The notes under the pieces: model-generated
Database searches by the model: none
What the model saw: only the letters and a program-made list of their open reading frames with translations
What the model was told of the DNA's origin: nothing
Program-made: the position numbers and the translations under genes
NCBI RefSeq assembly: GCF_000195295.1
Contig: NC_015388.1
Location: forward strand, 2,356,001-2,420,000
Source of the DNA: Desulfobacca acetoxidans DSM 11109
GTDB taxonomy: Bacteria; Desulfobacterota; Desulfobaccia; Desulfobaccales; Desulfobaccaceae
Reading direction: 5' to 3'
Length of the DNA stretch: 64,000 nt
Shown here: positions 10,370 through 62,452 of the stretch, piece after piece
How the letters are laid out: each line of letters begins with the position of its first letter
Position numbering within the stretch: the first letter of the stretch is position 1

Positions 10370-11023
10370 ATGCCAGTAGCAACGCGCTTCGGGGGAATTT
10401 TCATTTCTGCCCTATGTCACTGTCTTATCCTGCTCATTCCCATATCTCTGGCTACCAAGGTTTCCAAAACGTTTCCGCCGGTTGAATTTATCATGACTAT
10501 GGCGGAAAAGCCGATGGCCAGTGAACCGCCCCCCCGGACGGTGGAGCCGCCTAAACCGGAACCGGTGCGGCCCAAGCCAAAGATAAGACCGCAGCCCCGA
10601 CCGAAGCCGGTAGTTACGGAGCCGGTGGAAACCAAAACTTTTATACCTCAACCAATAACCGCCGCTCAACCATCACCTCCCATTTCCCCCCGGCGGACGG
10701 TAACTCGGGGGACCGGGGCCCCTACCGGCCCCCTGGTTACCGATTTCGGCAGCGCCACCGGCCCGGCCTTCCTGCGCCGGGTGATGCCGGTTTATCCAGA
10801 GATGGCCCGCCGTTTGGGAAAAGAGGGACGCGTGGTACTGCGGTTGTCAATCGATGCGCGGGGCAATCTTCGGGGAGTGGAGGTAATCCAGGGGGCCGGC
10901 TTCGGTTTTGAGGAGTCGGCTATGAGAGCCGTCAAACAATCCTCCTTCCGGCCAGCTATGGTCCAGGGGGAACCGAGGGATAGCATTGCCCGGCTGCCGA
11001 TCAAGTTTATCCTCAGGAATTGA
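10370..11023 (+). CDS. tonB: TonB family energy-transducing protein
   Basis: Inner-membrane protein that couples the ExbBD proton channel to outer-membrane receptors. The 217-residue product has one N-terminal membrane anchor (about 10-30), a long proline-rich periplasmic linker with PKPEPVRPKP-type repeats, and a C-terminal TonB domain. In that domain PVYPEMARRLGKEGRVVLRL and FRPAMVQGEP are recognisable. The partner exbB and exbD genes are 8-9 kb downstream, after two receptors, so this TonB is probably dedicated to this island. The TolA protein at 21.5 kb is a different paralogue. Confidence 0.9.
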   Translation: MPVATRFGGIFISALCHCLILLIPISLATKVSKTFPPVEFIMTMAEKPMASEPPPRTVEPPKPEPVRPKPKIRPQPRPKPVVTEPVETKTFIPQPITAAQPSPPISPRRTVTRGTGAPTGPLVTDFGSATGPAFLRRVMPVYPEMARRLGKEGRVVLRLSIDARGNLRGVEVIQGAGFGFEESAMRAVKQSSFRPAMVQGEPRDSIARLPIKFILRN

Positions 11024-11193: not shown

Positions 11194-11385
11194 ATGTGTG
11201 AAGCCACCGCATACATTCTTAGAAACGGCCAGGAGGAACTGCTGCTGCCGGATGTAGACCTTATCGAACCGGAAGAGGACGGTCTACTACGGTTAATCAG
11301 CATCTTCGGAGAACAGAGAGTGGTAAAGGCGGACTTCCTGAGGCTGAATCTGGCAGATCATAAGGTAATCCTCAAGGAAACCTAA
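11194..11385 (+). CDS. CooT family nickel-binding protein
   Basis: A 63-residue protein starting MCEATAYILRNGQEELL, matching the CooT family. Founding members are nickel-binding accessory proteins for CO dehydrogenase maturation that bind Ni(II) through the N-terminal Cys2, present here. The start is set by GCAGGAGG just upstream of the ATG at 11194; a longer frame from 11020 is rejected. Its position between tonB and two TonB receptors is the best single clue that the island handles nickel. The metal assignment comes from family knowledge, not from this sequence alone. Confidence 0.85.
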   Translation: MCEATAYILRNGQEELLLPDVDLIEPEEDGLLRLISIFGEQRVVKADFLRLNLADHKVILKET

Positions 11386-11409
11386 AAAGGCGAAAAGATA
11401 ATAAAGATC

Positions 11410-11561
11410 AGGGCAGGGGCTGACCTTGGCGGGGAGACCCTGCCCTGATGGGGAATTGGCCTGAGGAGGGGTTGCACACCCGCGTCTGTACCAACGCCCC
11501 TATTGTTATTTTACGGATAGAAAGGGGTGAGGGCAAGAGAAAAATAGGGGGAGGAAAAAAG
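11410..11561 (+). repeat. conserved leader element, copy 1 (upstream of the methyltransferase)
   Basis: The element opens with a hairpin in which GGGCAGGG (11411) pairs with CCCTGCCC, then a GATGGGGAATTGGCC block. A second hairpin (CCCCT...AGGGG) follows, then GGGGGAGGAAAAAAG as ribosome site for a GTG start. It is identical to copy 2 across the leader, and identity continues past the GTG to about 11587, into the signal-peptide codons. It may act as a cis-regulatory RNA. No known riboswitch core was recognised. Confidence 0.6.
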
Positions 11562-12434
11562 GTGAAATTCATTCGGAGAGGCACGATTTTGCTGTTGTCG
11601 GTTCTCATTTTGCCGTCACTGCTTTATGCCCAGGAGCAGCAAAAAGAGCAGGTCATCTATGACCACGATCGGATAAAGGACGAGATGTCAAGACGCTGGG
11701 ATCCAGAAAAATATGATAAATATCCAGGACATATCGTGCAACAAGGAGAAGAAGCCGCAGCCTGGCAGGAGCTTTTTGGCAAACTAATTACCGGCAAAGG
11801 TCTAAGAATATTGGATGCCGGCTGCGGCACCGGTGAAATCAGCTTCCTGCTGGCCGGCATGGGACACGAGGTCTACGGTATCGACATTTCTCCCAGAATG
11901 GTGGATAGAGCCAAGGAGAAAGCCGAAACCAAGACCGAGAGTGACATTGGCCGCCGTGTCCATTTCCAATTGGGGGACGCCGAAAAACCGCCTTTTGAAG
12001 AAGGGTTTTTCGACGTTGTAGTTTGCAAACACGTACTGTGGGCACTCCCCTCACCCCAGACGGCCTTAGACAGTTGGACGAGGGTTATCAAAGAAAACGG
12101 CAAGGTCATTGTAATCGACGCCCTCTGGGACGACGGGAGTCTGGTGACAAGCCTGAGAAGAAAGGTGGGAAGGTGGCTGATGTACGTCTTCGAGAAAAGA
12201 GATCTTTCCAGTAGTCATTATTCTCCTGCCTTGCAAGCCTCGTTGCCGCATGCCAAAGGCGTCCCCCTGGGAAAGGCCAAAACCTATTTGGAACAGGCGG
12301 GACTGTGTGATATCCAGGACGTGGATTTGAACTATTTAAGCGATATACAGAAGAAAGACATGCCGTTCTGGTACCGGATCAGCCGCAACTGGGACTACTA
12401 CGCCGTCTGCGGCCAAAAGCCGTTAGAAAAATAG
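11562..12434 (+). CDS. SAM-dependent methyltransferase preceded by a signal peptide
   Basis: A class I methyltransferase with SAM-binding motif LDAGCGTGEISFLL, followed by HEVYGIDISPRMVDRAKEK and the acidic loop FDVVVCKHVLWALP. From the GTG at 11562 (strong ribosome site) the 290-residue product starts with the signal peptide VKFIRRGTILLLSVLILPSL ending at LYAQEQ. That signal is nearly identical to the receptor's at 12982. A cytosolic form could start at ATG 11685 (MSRRWDPEKY). Relatives of this methyltransferase are often found beside metal-chelate transporters, from general knowledge. An exported methyltransferase would lack SAM, so the signal may be a by-product of duplication. Confidence 0.85.
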   Translation: MKFIRRGTILLLSVLILPSLLYAQEQQKEQVIYDHDRIKDEMSRRWDPEKYDKYPGHIVQQGEEAAAWQELFGKLITGKGLRILDAGCGTGEISFLLAGMGHEVYGIDISPRMVDRAKEKAETKTESDIGRRVHFQLGDAEKPPFEEGFFDVVVCKHVLWALPSPQTALDSWTRVIKENGKVIVIDALWDDGSLVTSLRRKVGRWLMYVFEKRDLSSSHYSPALQASLPHAKGVPLGKAKTYLEQAGLCDIQDVDLNYLSDIQKKDMPFWYRISRNWDYYAVCGQKPLEK

Positions 12435-12482
12435 TAACACATTTAGTTAAATGAAATTAAGCCTGAATTATTCAGAAAATAC

Positions 12483-12567
12483 AGTGGTCAGTGACCAGTT
12501 GCCAGTGGCCAGTTGCGTAGGGCGCGAATCGCAGATCGGCGTAAGCCAAAGCGAAGCGCATCACGCC
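12483..12567. repeat. degenerate 7-bp repeats and inverted copy 2 of the REP-like element
   Basis: 12483-12515 has staggered CCAGTGG/CAGTTGC-type units (GTGGTCAGTGACCAGTTGCC). 12517-12567 (GTAGGGCGCGAATCGCAGAT to CATCACGCC) is the inverted partner of 10177-10227. The rest of the 12435-12829 gap holds another short hairpin repeat (GTAGGATGGGCAACGCCTAC, 12655-12674) and no convincing gene; minus-strand frames across it are not supported. Confidence 0.6.
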
Positions 12568-12829
12568 TTCTGGGATGCTCCGACACCCATTTTCATGGTT
12601 CGGGGGGGTGACCCGCGGGTAATGGCAATCATCAAAAGATTGAGGTTCCTAAATGTAGGATGGGCAACGCCTACCATTTCTTGATCTGTTCTCTCAAGTA
12701 GCTGAAGTATTACGAACAATAACTCTTGGTGCCCAGGCTTTCTAATCTGTGATGGAGCAGTACTATTAAAGAGAAGAAGGCGAAAGACCCAAGCGATAAC
12801 TTGATAATGAGTACAAATAAGATCAATGC

Positions 12830-12981
12830 AGGGCAGGGGCTGACCTTGGCGGGGAGACCCTGCCCTGATGGGGAATTGGCCTGAGGAGGGGTTGCACACC
12901 CGCGTCTGTACCAACGCCCCTATTGTTATTTTACGGATAGAAAGGGGTGAGGGCAAGAGAAAAATAGGGGGAGGAAAAAAG
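12830..12981 (+). repeat. conserved leader element, copy 2 (upstream of the first receptor)
   Basis: Same sequence as copy 1 at a constant offset of 1420 bp, with no mismatch over the leader. It ends at the ribosome site of the receptor gene. The duplication covers leader, ribosome site and signal-peptide codons (to about 13055), after which the two genes are unrelated. Confidence 0.65.
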
Positions 12982-15009
12982 GTGAAATTCATTCGGAGAG
13001 GCACGATCTTGCTATTGTCGGTTCTCATCCTGCCGGCACTGCTTTATGCCCAGGAAAAGTTTCAGGAGCAGACAATCGATGAAATAGTGGTGGAAAGTGA
13101 ACGCCTGGTGAAGGAGCAGGGCAAGGTAACCATTAGGTCCGAAGGTCTGCCAGCGGAGGTGAATATAATCACCAGGGATGATCTTGAACATACGCCCTAT
13201 ACGGGAGATTATCTCGATATGTTGCGAAACGTGCCGGGAGTAAATATCGCAAAATACACCGGCGGCAATTACGGCGATGGAATTTCTATGCGTGGGTTTA
13301 CTGGCGGCGCCCATGGGGCGAATACTGCCTTTTTCGTGGACGGTATGCCCATGAATGTCATGGCCTATGTCCATGGAATGCAAGATATTGCCTGGCTGGT
13401 GCCGGAAATGATCGAACGCATCGAGGTCATCAAAGGGCCGTTCTCGGCGCTCTATGGCGATTTTGGCTTAGGCGGGGTCATCAATATCATCACCAAAAAA
13501 TCAGAAAGTGGTCCCACTGTTGGGTTATATGGAGGGACTTGGGGAACTGGTCAGGGAATCGGAGTCTTTAGCGATCCGTCTTACAAAGTAACTCCTTTTT
13601 TGGTATGGGAGGGCTATACCCGACAGGGATATCGGGACAATAATGATTTCGAGCGGGGGCAGTTTTTTAACAAATTCACTACCCCTTTGGGGGAAGGGTA
13701 TCTATCGCTGCGAGCCCACTACGTGGCCAGAACTTGGGGTGATCCGGGTTACATCTCGATAAACAAAATAAAAACAGGTCTAATCAGCCGGACAAGCGCG
13801 GTAAGCCCATACGATCGAGGCGATAGCGAAATGGCCGATGTGGTTTTGAACTACTCCCCCAAAGATGACGAACAAGGCTTTTACGGCACACTCTACTATG
13901 CCTATTATGGCATCGACACTGGCAGGACATGGGATGGATACACGCAGAGTCGGAAGGACAGCTTCTCAAACTATTGGGGTTGGAAGCTGTTTTATAATTA
14001 CCAGCCCTTTGACAATCTGTCTGTGATTGTCGGTGATGATCTGCGCTATGATCAGATCAATGCCAAAGAATGGGATACCATTGCATATTATAATTATCTG
14101 AATACAACCCGTAACCAAGAATTTCATTATTTCAGTACTGGTATATTCAGTCAGGTACAATATAAGCCCTTTTCTTTCCTAAAACTCTTAGGTGGTCTGC
14201 GCTTCGACCAATTTCAAATCGAAGTGAACAATAAGCTTGTGCCCCAGAATTCCGGTAATTGTAGCCCCAATTTGTGGAGTCCCAAATTTGGTTTGGTACT
14301 TACACCTTATAAAGATATCAATATCTTCGCCAACAAAGGGCGGGGTTTCCGTTCACCCAGCGAAGACGAGTTGTCTCCGTCAACTCCAGCCCAAAATGCT
14401 AATTATACTATGGGCCTGCCCAAGCTTGATACGTGGGATGTGGGCTTCAACGCGCTTTTCCTGAAACGATTATATGTCGCTTTTGACTATTATAACACCC
14501 TGTATCAGGGGGAACCGTGGCAAGATCCAATAACCTTAACTTATTACAACTTAGGTACTTCCAAACGTACCGGCCTCGAGATAGAAACCAAGATTTTCCT
14601 CACCAAGGAACTGTCGCTCTACGGTAGTTACTCTCATGTGCGGGCGCGCTTGAAAAATCCTCCTACCCCTGATGCCTGTTATGTTCCTTATATCCCAGCA
14701 GATATGGGAATCATCGGATTACAATTCAGGAAGCCCTGGGATCAAAACAATCAGCAGTTAAGCCTAGATTTTTACTATCGACTCTTGGGCCGAAGCCCCG
14801 CCAATTCTACTGCTACTCTCATAGGATCAAAATTTGAACAATATTCTTCAAGGTTGGCCTATCGCTATAAAAATTGGACCGCCTCAGTGGATGTTACATT
14901 AACCCCACGCCACTATTCCTCGGAAATCTACGTGGACGTCGGTTCGTTGTATTATCCCCCATTACCTTTTTTGGAGGTCTTGGGCGGACTAAAATACCGG
15001 TTTAATTAA
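12982..15009 (+). CDS. TonB-dependent outer-membrane receptor, predicted nickel/cobalt (copy 1)
   Basis: A 675-residue protein starting at GTG 12982, set by the GGGGGAGGAAAAAAG site. It has a signal peptide to about residue 23 (LYAQ), a TonB box around IDEIVV, a plug domain (PAEVNIITRDDLEHTPYTGD, then RIEVIKGPFSALYGDFGLGG) and a 22-strand-type barrel ending in an aromatic-rich strand (LGGLKYRFN). The plug loop has Met/His-rich segments such as DGMPMNVMAYVHGMQD, which would suit soft-metal binding. It is followed 73 bp later by a DUF4198 gene, a pairing repeated downstream. Metal specificity is inferred from neighbours. Confidence 0.9.
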   Translation: MKFIRRGTILLLSVLILPALLYAQEKFQEQTIDEIVVESERLVKEQGKVTIRSEGLPAEVNIITRDDLEHTPYTGDYLDMLRNVPGVNIAKYTGGNYGDGISMRGFTGGAHGANTAFFVDGMPMNVMAYVHGMQDIAWLVPEMIERIEVIKGPFSALYGDFGLGGVINIITKKSESGPTVGLYGGTWGTGQGIGVFSDPSYKVTPFLVWEGYTRQGYRDNNDFERGQFFNKFTTPLGEGYLSLRAHYVARTWGDPGYISINKIKTGLISRTSAVSPYDRGDSEMADVVLNYSPKDDEQGFYGTLYYAYYGIDTGRTWDGYTQSRKDSFSNYWGWKLFYNYQPFDNLSVIVGDDLRYDQINAKEWDTIAYYNYLNTTRNQEFHYFSTGIFSQVQYKPFSFLKLLGGLRFDQFQIEVNNKLVPQNSGNCSPNLWSPKFGLVLTPYKDINIFANKGRGFRSPSEDELSPSTPAQNANYTMGLPKLDTWDVGFNALFLKRLYVAFDYYNTLYQGEPWQDPITLTYYNLGTSKRTGLEIETKIFLTKELSLYGSYSHVRARLKNPPTPDACYVPYIPADMGIIGLQFRKPWDQNNQQLSLDFYYRLLGRSPANSTATLIGSKFEQYSSRLAYRYKNWTASVDVTLTPRHYSSEIYVDVGSLYYPPLPFLEVLGGLKYRFN

Positions 15010-15082
15010 ACAACATTTGCTTATTGGAAGTTTATTGCAAAAAACTGTTTCTTAAAGATCACCAACTTAAGGGAGAAATCTT

Positions 15083-15781
15083 ATGAAAAAAGCAGTTATG
15101 CTGGCGTTGGCCTTAACCCTGGTTTCCGCTGCTACTCTTTACGCCCACGACACCTGGGTGGCCAGAGACGGCGGCACATACGTGGTGATGTGGGGCCACG
15201 ACGGTAAAAGCGATCCCTACAAGGCGGATTTCATCAAGGCGGCCAAGGGCATAGACGCCTCCGGAAAAGATCTGTCGGTAATGGTAAAAGACAAGGGCAC
15301 CAGCGCCACCCTGGTCATGCCCCAGGAACCGGCTCTGGTCATCGTGGTGTTTAACTCGGGCCCCTGGGTCAAGACTCCTGAAGGCTGGAAAAATGTATCC
15401 AAACGCGGCGTCAAAGATGTCCTCCAGTCCATAAAAGGGGAAACCTTCAGCAAGAATCTCTGGGAGTGGAACAACAGCTTCACCCAACCGGTGGGCGGCA
15501 AGATGGAACTGGTGCCATTAAAAAATCCCCTGGCTCTGAAAGTGGGGGACAAGCTGCCTTTTCAAGTTCTGTATGACGGCAGACCCTTGCCCGGGGCCAC
15601 AGTGGGAGCGGAAGGAGTGGAGAAGGACTCTCTGAAAACCGACAAGGACGGGAAGGCCGAAGTGGTCATCAAAAAGAACGGGCTTAACATAGTAAAAGCT
15701 ACTCGCAAGACCGATACGCCCAATGACCCCGATGCCGATATGCTTTACAAATCGGCCACTATCGCCTTTGAAGTGAAGTAA
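15083..15781 (+). CDS. DUF4198 periplasmic protein, NikK-like (copy 1)
   Basis: A 232-residue secreted protein. The signal peptide ends ...ATLYA and the mature chain would start HDTW, placing a histidine at the free N-terminus, where it can bind metal. A second conserved cluster is WGHDGKSDPY near 33-42. DUF4198 proteins are linked to nickel/cobalt uptake (NikK-type) in genome-context studies. A C-terminal Ig-like segment (LPGATVGAEG, then LKTDKDGKAEV) is visible. GGGAGAAATCTT precedes the ATG. Likely role: binds the metal delivered by the receptor upstream. Confidence 0.85.
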   Translation: MKKAVMLALALTLVSAATLYAHDTWVARDGGTYVVMWGHDGKSDPYKADFIKAAKGIDASGKDLSVMVKDKGTSATLVMPQEPALVIVVFNSGPWVKTPEGWKNVSKRGVKDVLQSIKGETFSKNLWEWNNSFTQPVGGKMELVPLKNPLALKVGDKLPFQVLYDGRPLPGATVGAEGVEKDSLKTDKDGKAEVVIKKNGLNIVKATRKTDTPNDPDADMLYKSATIAFEVK

Positions 15782-15885
15782 GCATCGGATCACCTGATGA
15801 AGATGAGGATAAAGAATATTGAAGTGCAGAGAGAGAGCTCGGACCTGGGGGATGGTTCGACTTCGGCACCAGGAGAATAAACACA

Positions 15886-16029
15886 AGGGCAGGGGCTGAC
15901 CGTGGCGGGGAGACCCTGCCCTGATGGGGAATTGGCCTAAGGAGGATCCAAAGATCGGCGTATTGACGAGCACCCCTGTTGTCATTTTATGCATCAGAGG
16001 GGGTGATACCAAGGCAAAAGGGGGAGGCT
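15886..16029 (+). repeat. conserved leader element, copy 3 (upstream of the second receptor)
   Basis: The first ~60 bp match copies 1 and 2 almost exactly (one G for T in the loop, AA for GA near 15939), so the first hairpin is intact. The second part has diverged in sequence but keeps the hairpin: CACCCCT pairs with AGAGGGGGTG where copies 1 and 2 have CCCCT and AGGGG. It ends in GGGGGAGGCT before the GTG at 16030. Retained pairing with changed bases suggests selection on RNA structure. Confidence 0.55.
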
Positions 16030-18054
16030 GTGAAATCTTTTAAGATCGTTGTAGCGGCATTTCTATTGAGTTTGATCTGTCCGGAATTGCTCTTTTCCGA
16101 AGAGGAGAAAAAAGAGCAGGTTAATGTCATGGAAGAAATTTTGGTGGAAACCGAACGCGTGGTAGAAAAGCAGGACAAGATTACCATCAGACCTGAGGGA
16201 TTGCCGGCACAGGTAGATATCATTACCAAGGACGAAATCCAGCGGACGCCTTATACCGGTGATGTTCTCGATATCCTGCGTAAAGTGCCGGGTTTGAATG
16301 TACAGAAATATCCCCGCGGAGACATGGGACATCAAATCGGTTTGCGAGGCTTTATCGGCAATAATGGCGTGGCCGTTTTTGTGGATGGGGTGCCGGTAAA
16401 CACCCTCCATTGGTGGAACGGCCAGGTGGAGATTGGCTGGCTGATCCCGGAGATGATTGAACGCGTTGAAGTCATTAAAGGACCTTTTTCAGCGCTTTAC
16501 GGCAATTTTGCCCTGGGAGGGACTATCAATTTTGTCACCCGAAAGTCTGATCCATCTTCCAGTTTGGGGGGATATGGAGGCAGCTTTGCCACAGGTCGGG
16601 GAGTGGGTGTCTTTAGCGACCCCTCCTTGCAATATACCCCTTTCTTGGTATGGGAAGGGTATATCCGGGATGGATATCGTGAAAACAGTGATTACCAACG
16701 CGGCCAGTTTTTTAATAAAGTTACGTTCCCGTTGTGGCAGGGTGACGTATCAGTGCGGGCCCATTATGCCGCCCGTACCTGGAGTGACGCCGGTTACTTG
16801 AAAATTGAGGAGATGAAAAAGGGGATAGTTAGTCGCACTAGCGCAGTAAATCTCACGGACCGGGGCGACAGTGAAATGGCTGATGTTGTAGTAAATTACT
16901 CCCCCCACGGAGGAGAAGAAGGCTTGCATGCCACTCTTTACTATACCTATTTATGGAATGCCACCGGAAGGACGTTTCCACCTTCGCCCCAGGCACGACG
17001 TGACAGTTCGGAAAATTACTGCGGTTGGAGGCTATTGTATGATTACCGCCCCTTCGACCAATTATCCCTTATCGCCGGCAACGAACTGCGCTATGACTCG
17101 GCTAAGACCAACGATATGAGTTCGCTCAATTATTATACTATTACCAAAGTAAAATCCCTCTACGATTTCAACCAGTTCAATACCGCCTTTTTTGTACAGG
17201 GCCAGTACAAACCTTTTTCCTTCTTTAAACTGGTCGGTGGGTTGCGCTACGATACGTTTAATATCGATGTTAATAACATACTGTATCCCCAGAACTCCGG
17301 AAACGCCTATCCCGATATCTGGAGTCCCAAAATCGGGTTAGTAATCACCCCTTATCAAGACATTAATATTTACGCCAATAAAGGAACGGGATTCCTTTCC
17401 CCCAGCCCCAGCCAATTGTCCCCCGCCTCGGCAACCCAAAAGGCAAATTTTGACCTGGGCCTGGCAAAATTGGATACCTGGGACGTAGGCATAAACGCCC
17501 TCTTGTTCAAACGGCTTCAGATCAACATTGACTATTATAACACTTTATACCAGCGAGAGCAGTGGTTAAACCCGGCCACCTTGGTATATGAAAACCTGGG
17601 TGCTTCCAAACGGACCGGCGTCGAAGTAGAGGCCAAAATCTTCCTCACCAATGAACTTACTTTTTACGGCAGTTGGGCCGATGTGCGGGCCAGACTGAAA
17701 AACCCGCAAACGCCCGGGGCGGTATATATTACCGGCCAACCCGAGGATATTTCCACTGTTGGTATAAATTATCAGAAAGCCTGGGCCGGAGGAGGTCAAC
17801 AGGCTGTCTTTGATTTCTGCTATGCCCGCAGCGGCCGTAAGCCGGTCGATACGTCCGGTGCCCTTATCGGATCACAATTCGATCGATACCTTATGAAAGT
17901 AAGCTACCGGTATAAAAAATGGACGGCTTCGGTGGACGCGTGCTTCACGCCCCGAAAGTATGCCGCGGATACCTACACCACCCAAAGTGGTGAGATAGCA
18001 ATTATCCCCTATCCGACGTGGGATGTGCTGGCTGGAATTAGATATCAATTCTAA
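16030..18054 (+). CDS. TonB-dependent outer-membrane receptor, predicted nickel/cobalt (copy 2)
   Basis: A 674-residue paralogue of the receptor at 12982; the two align along their whole length (same plug motif IERVEVIKGPFSALYGNFAL and same barrel strands). The GTG start follows GGGGGAGGCT. The signal peptide is different (VKSFKIVVAAFLLSLICPEL), so only the leader, not the signal, is shared with copy 1. The plug loop reads VDGVPVNTLHWWNGQVEI, replacing the Met/His-rich loop of copy 1, which hints at a different ligand such as another metal or chelate. It is paired with the DUF4198 gene at 18137. Confidence 0.9.
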   Translation: MKSFKIVVAAFLLSLICPELLFSEEEKKEQVNVMEEILVETERVVEKQDKITIRPEGLPAQVDIITKDEIQRTPYTGDVLDILRKVPGLNVQKYPRGDMGHQIGLRGFIGNNGVAVFVDGVPVNTLHWWNGQVEIGWLIPEMIERVEVIKGPFSALYGNFALGGTINFVTRKSDPSSSLGGYGGSFATGRGVGVFSDPSLQYTPFLVWEGYIRDGYRENSDYQRGQFFNKVTFPLWQGDVSVRAHYAARTWSDAGYLKIEEMKKGIVSRTSAVNLTDRGDSEMADVVVNYSPHGGEEGLHATLYYTYLWNATGRTFPPSPQARRDSSENYCGWRLLYDYRPFDQLSLIAGNELRYDSAKTNDMSSLNYYTITKVKSLYDFNQFNTAFFVQGQYKPFSFFKLVGGLRYDTFNIDVNNILYPQNSGNAYPDIWSPKIGLVITPYQDINIYANKGTGFLSPSPSQLSPASATQKANFDLGLAKLDTWDVGINALLFKRLQINIDYYNTLYQREQWLNPATLVYENLGASKRTGVEVEAKIFLTNELTFYGSWADVRARLKNPQTPGAVYITGQPEDISTVGINYQKAWAGGGQQAVFDFCYARSGRKPVDTSGALIGSQFDRYLMKVSYRYKKWTASVDACFTPRKYAADTYTTQSGEIAIIPYPTWDVLAGIRYQF

Positions 18055-18901: not shown

Positions 18902-19441
18902 ATGCTTCAATATTTCATCAAGGGCGGCCCGCTGATGTGGCCCATTCTGCTCTGTTCCGTGATCGCCCTGGCTATTACTATCAATAAATCTATCCAGTAC
19001 TTTCGCGTGCGGCGGGATATCGGTCGATCCCTGGAGGCTATCCAGGAGCACGGGAGCACATATCTAGCGCCGGTTTTACAGGCGGTACAGCAGGGTCTGG
19101 ACGACCGGCAGATCTCCCTGGCGGGCTCCCGAGAACTCAAGACCTTGGAATCCGGCCTGGGATCTCTCAACCTGATTGCCGTTATTGCGCCGCTCTTGGG
19201 GCTGACGGGAACTGTCACCGGCATGATCAAGGCCTTTCAGGTCATCGCCACCATGGGCACGAATGTCGATCCCAGCCTGTTGGCCGCCGGCATCTGGGAG
19301 GCCTTGATAACCACGGCTGCCGGTCTGTTCGTGGGCATCCCCACCCATGTCGCCGCCCACTACCTGGATCGCAGCCTGGATGAAGTAGCCTTGCGGATGA
19401 AAGAAATCATCTTGGACCTGCGCGGGGGCAACAATGATTGA
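18902..19441 (+). CDS. exbB: ExbB proton-channel protein (MotA/TolQ/ExbB family)
   Basis: Inner-membrane channel subunit that powers TonB. The 179-residue product has an N-terminal membrane helix (PLMWPILLCSVIALAITINK) and the conserved pair of C-terminal helices: LNLIAVIAPLLGLTGTVTGMI and GIWEALITTAAGLFVGIPTH. GAGGTG lies before the ATG. It overlaps exbD by 8 bp. It is distinct from the TolQ at 23.2-24.0 kb. Confidence 0.93.
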   Translation: MLQYFIKGGPLMWPILLCSVIALAITINKSIQYFRVRRDIGRSLEAIQEHGSTYLAPVLQAVQQGLDDRQISLAGSRELKTLESGLGSLNLIAVIAPLLGLTGTVTGMIKAFQVIATMGTNVDPSLLAAGIWEALITTAAGLFVGIPTHVAAHYLDRSLDEVALRMKEIILDLRGGNND

Positions 19442-19841
19442 ATTTGTCCGGCGCCGGAAAAATCACCAACATATCAATCTCACCCCGCTCGTGGACGTGG
19501 TCTTTTTACTGCTGCTCTTTTTTATGCTCACGGCGCATTTTGTGACGGCCCCGACCATCAAGATCGCCCTGCCGGATTCCAAAACCGCAGAGCCGGAGGT
19601 TAAGGAGGAAGTCATCATTTCCGTGGCCAAAGACGGCGCCCTCTTCCTTGACAAGGATCCGATAATGCTCACCGGATTGCAGTATTCCCTCCAGGAAAAA
19701 CTGAAGAAGCTGAAAAAGCCTTCGGTACGCATCAAGTCTGACCGGGAGGCGAGATTGGGACTGATTGTCAACGTGGTAGATGAAATCAGGCTATCAGGAG
19801 CTGGGGCCTTCAGTATCGAGACGGAACGGCAGAGAGAATAA
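19434..19841 (+). CDS. exbD: ExbD biopolymer transport protein
   Basis: Partner of ExbB: one N-terminal membrane helix (LTPLVDVVFLLLLFFMLTAH) containing the essential membrane aspartate in PLVDV, then a periplasmic domain. 135 residues, normal for the family. The ATG overlaps the end of exbB, implying coupled translation. It is the last gene of the metal island. Confidence 0.92.
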   Translation: MIEFVRRRKNHQHINLTPLVDVVFLLLLFFMLTAHFVTAPTIKIALPDSKTAEPEVKEEVIISVAKDGALFLDKDPIMLTGLQYSLQEKLKKLKKPSVRIKSDREARLGLIVNVVDEIRLSGAGAFSIETERQRE

Positions 19842-61859: not shown

Positions 61860-62452
61860 AACTTCCTCGTCTGTTTCACCGGTCCGGTGGTAAAAGAAGC
61901 CAGCCAACAGTCAAAGTCGTCTTGACCGCGGGCCTGAAGATTTTCCCGGTCGAGTTCCCAACGCAGAGGATTATTAACGATATATTCCCGGATACGGCTT
62001 AAGGATGCGTCGTCTCGGACGACGTGTTCGTAATAACCGCGTTGCCAAAACTTGGTTCCCGGCGCCTGCCGCATTACGTTGATTACTTTGGTCGATTGAT
62101 ATTTGTAGTAGGCTATAATTTGCCCCAACGTAGGCTGTCCTGGTGGAAATGCTTTTTGGTTGTTGTAGGGGCGGGGTAACCCCGCCCCTACGAGGACTAC
62201 CACTCCATGTATATGATTCGGCATAACTACAAAGGCGTCCAATTCGATATTAGGATAATGGCGCGGTAGGTCATGCCAACAATCACTGACTATTTTACCG
62301 TAATCGTTCAACTGTATTGCGCCATCCATAATCTCGCCCAGCAGACATTTTCTCTGATTGACCCAGATGGTGACAAAATACGCCCCCGCCTGAGAGTAGT
62401 CATATTCCGGCAGGCGGAGAGATCGGCGTTTATTTGCTTTCGGGTCCGCCAA
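61856..62452 (-). CDS. REP-associated tyrosine transposase (Y1/IS200-like)
   Basis: A 198-residue single-strand transposase of the RAYT type. The HUH metal motif is VVMPNHIHGVVVL, and the catalytic tyrosine is probably in QRGYYEHVVRDD, with the N-terminal RSLRLPEYDYSQAGAYFVTI typical of these proteins. The start is a TTG at 62452. These enzymes mobilise or maintain REP sequences; two REP hairpins lie within and at the end of the gene. It is one of few mobile-element genes in the window. Confidence 0.88.
   Translation of the reverse strand: MADPKANKRRSLRLPEYDYSQAGAYFVTIWVNQRKCLLGEIMDGAIQLNDYGKIVSDCWHDLPRHYPNIELDAFVVMPNHIHGVVVLVGAGLPRPYNNQKAFPPGQPTLGQIIAYYKYQSTKVINVMRQAPGTKFWQRGYYEHVVRDDASLSRIREYIVNNPLRWELDRENLQARGQDDFDCWLASFTTGPVKQTRKL
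62166..62190. repeat. REP hairpin inside the transposase coding region
   Basis: TAGGGGCGGGGTAACCCCGC followed by CCCTA, a perfect palindrome with a 2-nt centre. It is read in frame as part of the protein (VGAGLPRPYN), so the gene has either absorbed a REP insertion without frameshift or evolved it in place. Confidence 0.8.

Follow-up and report, generated by a model that had tools for sequence, protein, structure and literature searches.

A candidate cis-acting RNA leader with alternative hairpins upstream of TonB-dependent receptor genes in Desulfobacca acetoxidans and in bacteria of at least two phyla

Why does one structured leader stand three times in a single gene cluster of Desulfobacca acetoxidans DSM 11109, and does it act as RNA? 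A preliminary description of the DNA analysed here (the window: 64,000 nucleotides of NC_015388.1, positions 2,356,001 to 2,420,000; coordinates below are those of the window unless stated otherwise) had placed copies at 11410, 12830 and 15886 and had proposed an undescribed cis-acting RNA, perhaps responsive to a metal or ligand, in front of a methyltransferase gene and both receptor genes. The three copies are indeed present and start within a base or two of those positions, at 11409, 12829 and 15885/15886. They precede, in order, a class I SAM methyltransferase whose N-terminus resembles a signal peptide (11562-12434; Pfam Methyltransf_11, E 6.4e-26) and two TonB-dependent receptors (12982-15009, Pfam Plug and barrel; 16030-18054). 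According to Pfam, the cluster also holds a TrmO-domain protein, TonB (10370-11023), the nickel-binding CODH accessory protein CooT just 5' of copy 1 (11194-11385; E 4.9e-22), two DUF4198 proteins, one of them in a NikK-like context at 15083-15781, and ExbB and ExbD (18902-19441 and 19434-19841). All the features to which we give window coordinates in the cluster lie on the forward strand.

The leader can be divided into three predicted hairpins, P1, PA and P3. In copy 1, P1 occupies 11409-11447 (arms 11409-11418 and 11438-11447; inner stem 11424-11426 and 11431-11433). PA would span 11450-11500 by pairing GGGG-AA-UUGG (11450-11459) with CCAA-CG-CCCC (11491-11500), and its alternative P3 would span 11495-11529 (CGCCCCU, 11495-11501; AGGGGUG, 11523-11529). 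The presumed Shine-Dalgarno sequence GGGGGAGG and the GTG start of the methyltransferase (11562) follow at 11547-11564. Copy 2 (12829-12959) has P1 at 12829-12867, PA at 12870-12920 and P3 at 12915-12949, and copy 3 (15885-16015) has P1 at 15886-15894/15914-15922 and P3 at 15971-15977/15999-16005. Copies 1 and 2, previously called identical across the leader, share 179 nt without a difference (11409-11587 = 12829-13007), and the identity therefore extends 26 nt inside the coding sequence; over the initial 100 coding bases as a whole the identity is 84%, and a repeat search aligned the two copies at 94% identity across 254 nt. Copy 3, as also described before, has diverged in its second half and retains the second hairpin with other bases: P1 and the joint that follows match at 52 of 54 positions, the remainder at 61 of 99 only, and P3 reads CACCCCU/GGGGGUG vs CGCCCCU/AGGGGUG in copy 1. 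Since single copies gained only modestly in folding energy over shuffled sequences (z -2.2 and -1.2), the case for a structure rests on comparison and not on energy.

We therefore turn to the copies outside the cluster. Exactly four sites in the complete 3.28-Mb genome (3,282,536 bp) carry the palindrome GGCAGGG-N15-25-CCCTGCC, and each lies at a leader. The fourth copy, found with blastn at genome positions 1431728-1431860 on the reverse strand, lies 0.94 Mb from the window cluster and 5' of a third TonB-dependent receptor gene; the genome encodes 15 TonB-dependent receptor plugs, and the leader stands at 3 only. In the order, blastn detected copies in three other genomes, and 4 of 29 genomes together encode seven members of the receptor subfamily, with the leader at 7/7. 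A first covariance model built from seven sequences picked up leaders in other parts of the phylum. When 84,980 species genomes were scanned with a pattern, 23 hits came back, ten of which were genuine by sequence and gene context while 13 were dismissed on one or the other, and rebuilt covariance models added members in Nitrospirota, Syntrophales and other families of the phylum. The search of related genomes suggested in the preliminary description thus reached homologues well outside the locus. In all, the covariance models and the one pattern scan yielded about 40 leaders at distinct loci in Desulfobacterota, in Nitrospirota and in one MAG labelled Nitrospinota. The carriers bear the labels Smithella, Syntrophaceae, Thermodesulfovibrionales, Nitrospira and Nitrospinota MAGs; a locus labelled 'Bacteroidales' (L055) matches the Syntrophaceae locus L059 across the leader, and its label is probably misassigned. 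Across the phylum the leader is rare, with matches in 12 of the 395 genomes sampled.

Some matches were set aside. Eleven genomes of other groups, which the pattern had hit by chance only, served as controls, and the last model gave no match there at E<=0.01. Weak matches (L013, L015-L022, L025, L026, L029, L040, L082, L095-L097) were dismissed on sequence or context; the weakest, L018-L022 and L026, scored below 23 bits, had nothing similar to the receptor or to the cluster proteins by tblastn and were dismissed partly without detailed reading. In the window itself, a 22-bit hit at 62167-62276 is the palindrome GTAGGGGCGGGG (62160-62195) and not a leader. Similar palindromes near REP-type transposase-like genes gave rise to the false matches in L025 and L096.

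Across at least two phyla, some 35 TonB-dependent receptor genes have the leader on their 5' side, mostly near nickel or cobalt genes and often within a tonB-exbBD operon. Every leader with a readable downstream gene precedes such a receptor, except two that precede methyltransferases, in the window and at L028 of genome G019. A position 5' of related genes is therefore conserved in diverse genomes. The earlier assignment of the leader to the methyltransferase and both receptors holds for all three genes and was drawn too narrowly: the leader belongs to TonB-dependent receptors, and the methyltransferase is the exception. Both of these class I SAM methyltransferases (11562-12434 in the window; 556-1479 in L028) have a signal-peptide-like start, the two genomes being of different families, and the start of the window protein is common to the receptor gene, within the 179-nt identity. 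An exported SAM-dependent enzyme would be odd. Judged from sequence, the leader and signal peptide seem to have been acquired from a receptor gene; at copy 1, a duplication from that gene would have carried leader control and export signal to the methyltransferase. Small class I methyltransferases that lack a signal peptide recur near tonB and leader-bearing receptor genes (L100, L102, L103, L104, L105, L115). Tetrapyrrole-methylase-like proteins with apparent signal peptides also adjoin such receptor genes (L111, 7213-8145 and 10515-11468; L113, 7639-8670; Pfam was run on L111 7213-8145 only).

P1 is a hairpin of 7-12 bp that contains an internal loop as well as a short inner stem. Its core arms, GGCAGGG/CCCTGCC, are almost invariant in most members, and the spacing of the arms differs by several nt among members. 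In L121 the stem is wholly different (GGACGGGGCGUG/CACGCCCCGUCC), yet 12 bp long, and single core pairs change from A-U to G-C in L094 and from G-C to C-G in L083. In an alignment of 31 covariance-model matches that was fitted to the structure, and is thereby biased in its favour, 93% of the P1 and P3 cells were paired vs 86.0 (sd 0.7) in shuffled alignments, and 44 cells showed double changes vs 14.6, a count that none of 500 shuffles attained; L121, L094 and L083 are evidence independent of the fit. Sliding the partner by 1-3 columns removed most of the covariation signal. The covariation that had been named as a check on the RNA proposal is thus significant, and compensatory base changes are found, more weakly for PA. 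Four loci (L014, L061, L085, L086) have P1 in reverse orientation with respect to P3 and the downstream receptor, with the inner loop reverse-complemented. A simple model in which P1 is an aptamer does not explain this, since an aptamer in the P1 loop would not tolerate inversion. In our reading, a structural hairpin was flipped in these inverted copies and kept its stem, because in L121 the stem sequence was replaced wholesale; this is the least comfortable part of the RNA interpretation.

On the 3' side of P1 stand GG(R)-AA-GCG-A, a small hairpin and then A-CGC-CCCUU, which would together fold as PA. The C-rich 3' strand of PA doubles as the 5' strand of P3, a hairpin of about 5-10 bp just 5' of the ribosome site, so that PA and P3 would be mutually exclusive. 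When strands were swapped between lineages, P3 was more stable with its own partner (-12.39 vs -11.16 kcal/mol, p 0.0008), and so was PA in a test with one sequence per lineage and split points chosen by hand (-9.66 vs -7.94, z -4.1, p 0.0001; basal part, p 0.0003). A control pairing, a pseudoknot between the P1 loop and the P3 5' strand, showed no coevolution (p 0.97). The swap tests support both hairpins and thereby point to a two-state switch. At fixed alignment columns, 69.3% of PA was paired vs 66.2 in shuffles (5/500), the covariation score was marginal (74/500), and P3 at fixed MAFFT columns showed no excess over shuffles. We attribute the weakness of these fixed-column signals to register shifts between lineages, and because of it we hold PA as moderately supported. 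Comparison thus favours an architecture in which a 5' P1, with its internal loop and inner stem, is followed by a C-rich strand that would pair either upstream (PA) or downstream (P3).

The 3' strand of P3 is AAGGGGGUGA, or AAGGAGGUGA in the Smithella types, and resembles an extended Shine-Dalgarno sequence; both forms resemble the complement of the 16S rRNA end. The apparent Shine-Dalgarno sequence sits 3' of P3. A pairing of the P3 5' strand with this downstream sequence is striking in copy 1 (CCCCUAUU/AAUAGGGG), yet it did no better than with swapped partners (p 0.24) and was abandoned. No U run follows P3 in the sequence, and an intrinsic terminator is therefore unlikely. The string TTTTA-N-CAGAAAGG, which covers the P3 loop and 3' strand (A8 columns 53-67), is conserved beyond the needs of pairing. 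In L038, L041, L045 and L055 an AUG-UAA start-stop lies right after the Shine-Dalgarno-like P3 strand and 5' of the receptor ribosome site. Upstream open reading frames as a common feature were discarded: beside this Smithella-type AUG-UAA, other members have GUG in or out of phase, and no shared pattern was apparent by eye.

The genes around the leader suggest what it may respond to. CooT adjoins leader loci in the window and at L116, and other neighbours are NikR, LarE, LarC and AIRC-domain LarB (L098), HypF (L110), CbiM (L112) and CobN (L105). A solute-binding protein of family 5 (L102) also occurs, as do DUF4198 proteins, which we take to be NikK. CooT, NikR, LarB, LarC, LarE, HypF, CbiM, CobN and DUF4198 together indicate nickel or cobalt. 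Auxiliary proteins of the NikK/NikL type belong to nickel transporters (PMC2667541, PMC11247825). Some leader loci have ZnuA-type (L107, zinc-type) or Fe/B12-type (L106) binding proteins, and nickel is therefore not the sole possible substrate. Uptake of nickel or cobalt is most likely the common function of the leader-bearing receptors, and this gene context makes it plausible that the leader is metal- or ligand-responsive, as first suggested.

Searches of Rfam 15 returned nothing for the leader, either in the window (E<=5) or in ten relatives (E<=1-2), and we found no description of such a leader in open-licence papers; the leader is a cis-regulatory family unlisted in Rfam. Together with the homologues in other genera, families and phyla and the significant covariation, this bears out the proposal of an undescribed cis-acting RNA. 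The NiCo (czcD) riboswitch is also an RNA leader linked to nickel and cobalt homeostasis genes. However, its Rfam covariance model matches none of the leaders, and NiCo RNA is a four-way junction before efflux genes, whereas the present leader is a row of hairpins before uptake receptors. Cobalamin riboswitches, like the present leader, often precede outer-membrane TonB receptors, but the model RF00174 matches no leader; the one genuine cobalamin riboswitch near a leader, with 115 bits, is at L039, some 800 bp distant and on the opposite strand. Translational attenuators likewise have one strand common to two competing hairpins near a ribosome site; here the hairpin would capture a Shine-Dalgarno-like strand 5' of the apparent ribosome site, and the action would be translational. 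According to work cited in PMC11247825, NikR regulates the nickel TonB-dependent receptors FecA3/FrpB4 of Helicobacter. That system has the same type of target gene and probably the same substrate, but NikR works on promoter DNA and is missing in most carriers tested.

On balance, we consider it probable that the leader is a family of cis-acting RNAs whose two-state PA/P3 fold controls TonB-dependent receptors for scarce transition metals, mostly nickel or cobalt. From these comparisons we infer the ligand, the direction of control and the translational action as follows. P3 would sequester the Shine-Dalgarno-like G-rich strand AAGGGGGUGA just 5' of the receptor ribosome site and lower expression, and PA would release it and raise expression. 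Sufficient metal would tip the balance to P3, by direct ligand binding or through an RNA-binding protein. A leader a few nt after tonB or exbD would set the level of the receptor apart from that of the TonB machinery in the same operon. A stronger version is possible, and we advance it only tentatively: the leaders, present in at least two phyla, would form a new riboswitch class. Nickel or cobalt (or a nickel cofactor) would then be sensed by the RNA itself, which would shut off outer-membrane metal receptors in anaerobes mostly without NikR.

The sensor might instead lie elsewhere. A protein such as a metal-sensing regulator or a ribonuclease could bind a leader RNA that is itself no sensor, and the strong conservation of the P1 stem and loop in most lineages and of the TTTTA string in P3, as well as the location of leaders within operons between tonB or exbD and the receptor, fits this; yet no shared candidate regulator was found beside the loci, and we regard the idea as doubtful, if worth keeping in view. 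A hairpin for intercistronic processing or mRNA stability, which would raise receptor output above that of TonB/ExbBD without any sensing, suits the same location and would tolerate the inversion of P1. We find it unlikely, since it leaves unexplained both the coevolution of PA and P3 on one common strand and the limitation of the leader to 3 of the 15 TonB-dependent receptors of the genome.

Alternatively, NikR or some other metal-dependent repressor could bind P1 as a DNA operator, and the downstream hairpins would be incidental. The nearly invariant core arms, the four inverted copies, possible for a symmetric operator, and the NikR gene that adjoins a Smithella locus speak for it. However, the distance between the arms varies, L121 exchanges the entire stem and keeps the pairing, and in five loci (L038, L076, L083, L086, L089) P1 starts 3-6 nt past the stop codon of tonB or exbD, which leaves no room for an intergenic promoter. 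Moreover, of 10 carrier genomes tested, 7 lacked NikR_C, among them the complete genome of the window; E. coli, the positive control, gave a match. A NikR operator was rejected on this distribution, and the distribution and the closeness to the stop codon together make a DNA operator quite improbable. In a 2009 survey, less than half of the organisms that had a NikABCDE transporter also had NikR (PMC2667541). Finally, a recent local duplication devoid of function, to which the 179-nt identity of copies 1 and 2 including the signal-peptide start might point and which had been named as the outcome that would overturn the RNA proposal, is refuted by the fourth copy elsewhere in the genome and by the diverged, covarying leaders in other genera and phyla, before receptors or, twice, a methyltransferase.

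Under the preferred reading of a switching RNA leader, the family offers a concrete, testable element on how nickel uptake across the outer membrane is controlled without NikR. The carriers are sulfate reducers, syntrophs and Nitrospirota, whose metabolism of carbon monoxide and hydrogen is driven by nickel enzymes. The leader would be a second kind of RNA linked to nickel or cobalt, on uptake instead of efflux, and its presence singles out the members of that regulon among the many TonB-dependent receptors that a genome encodes.
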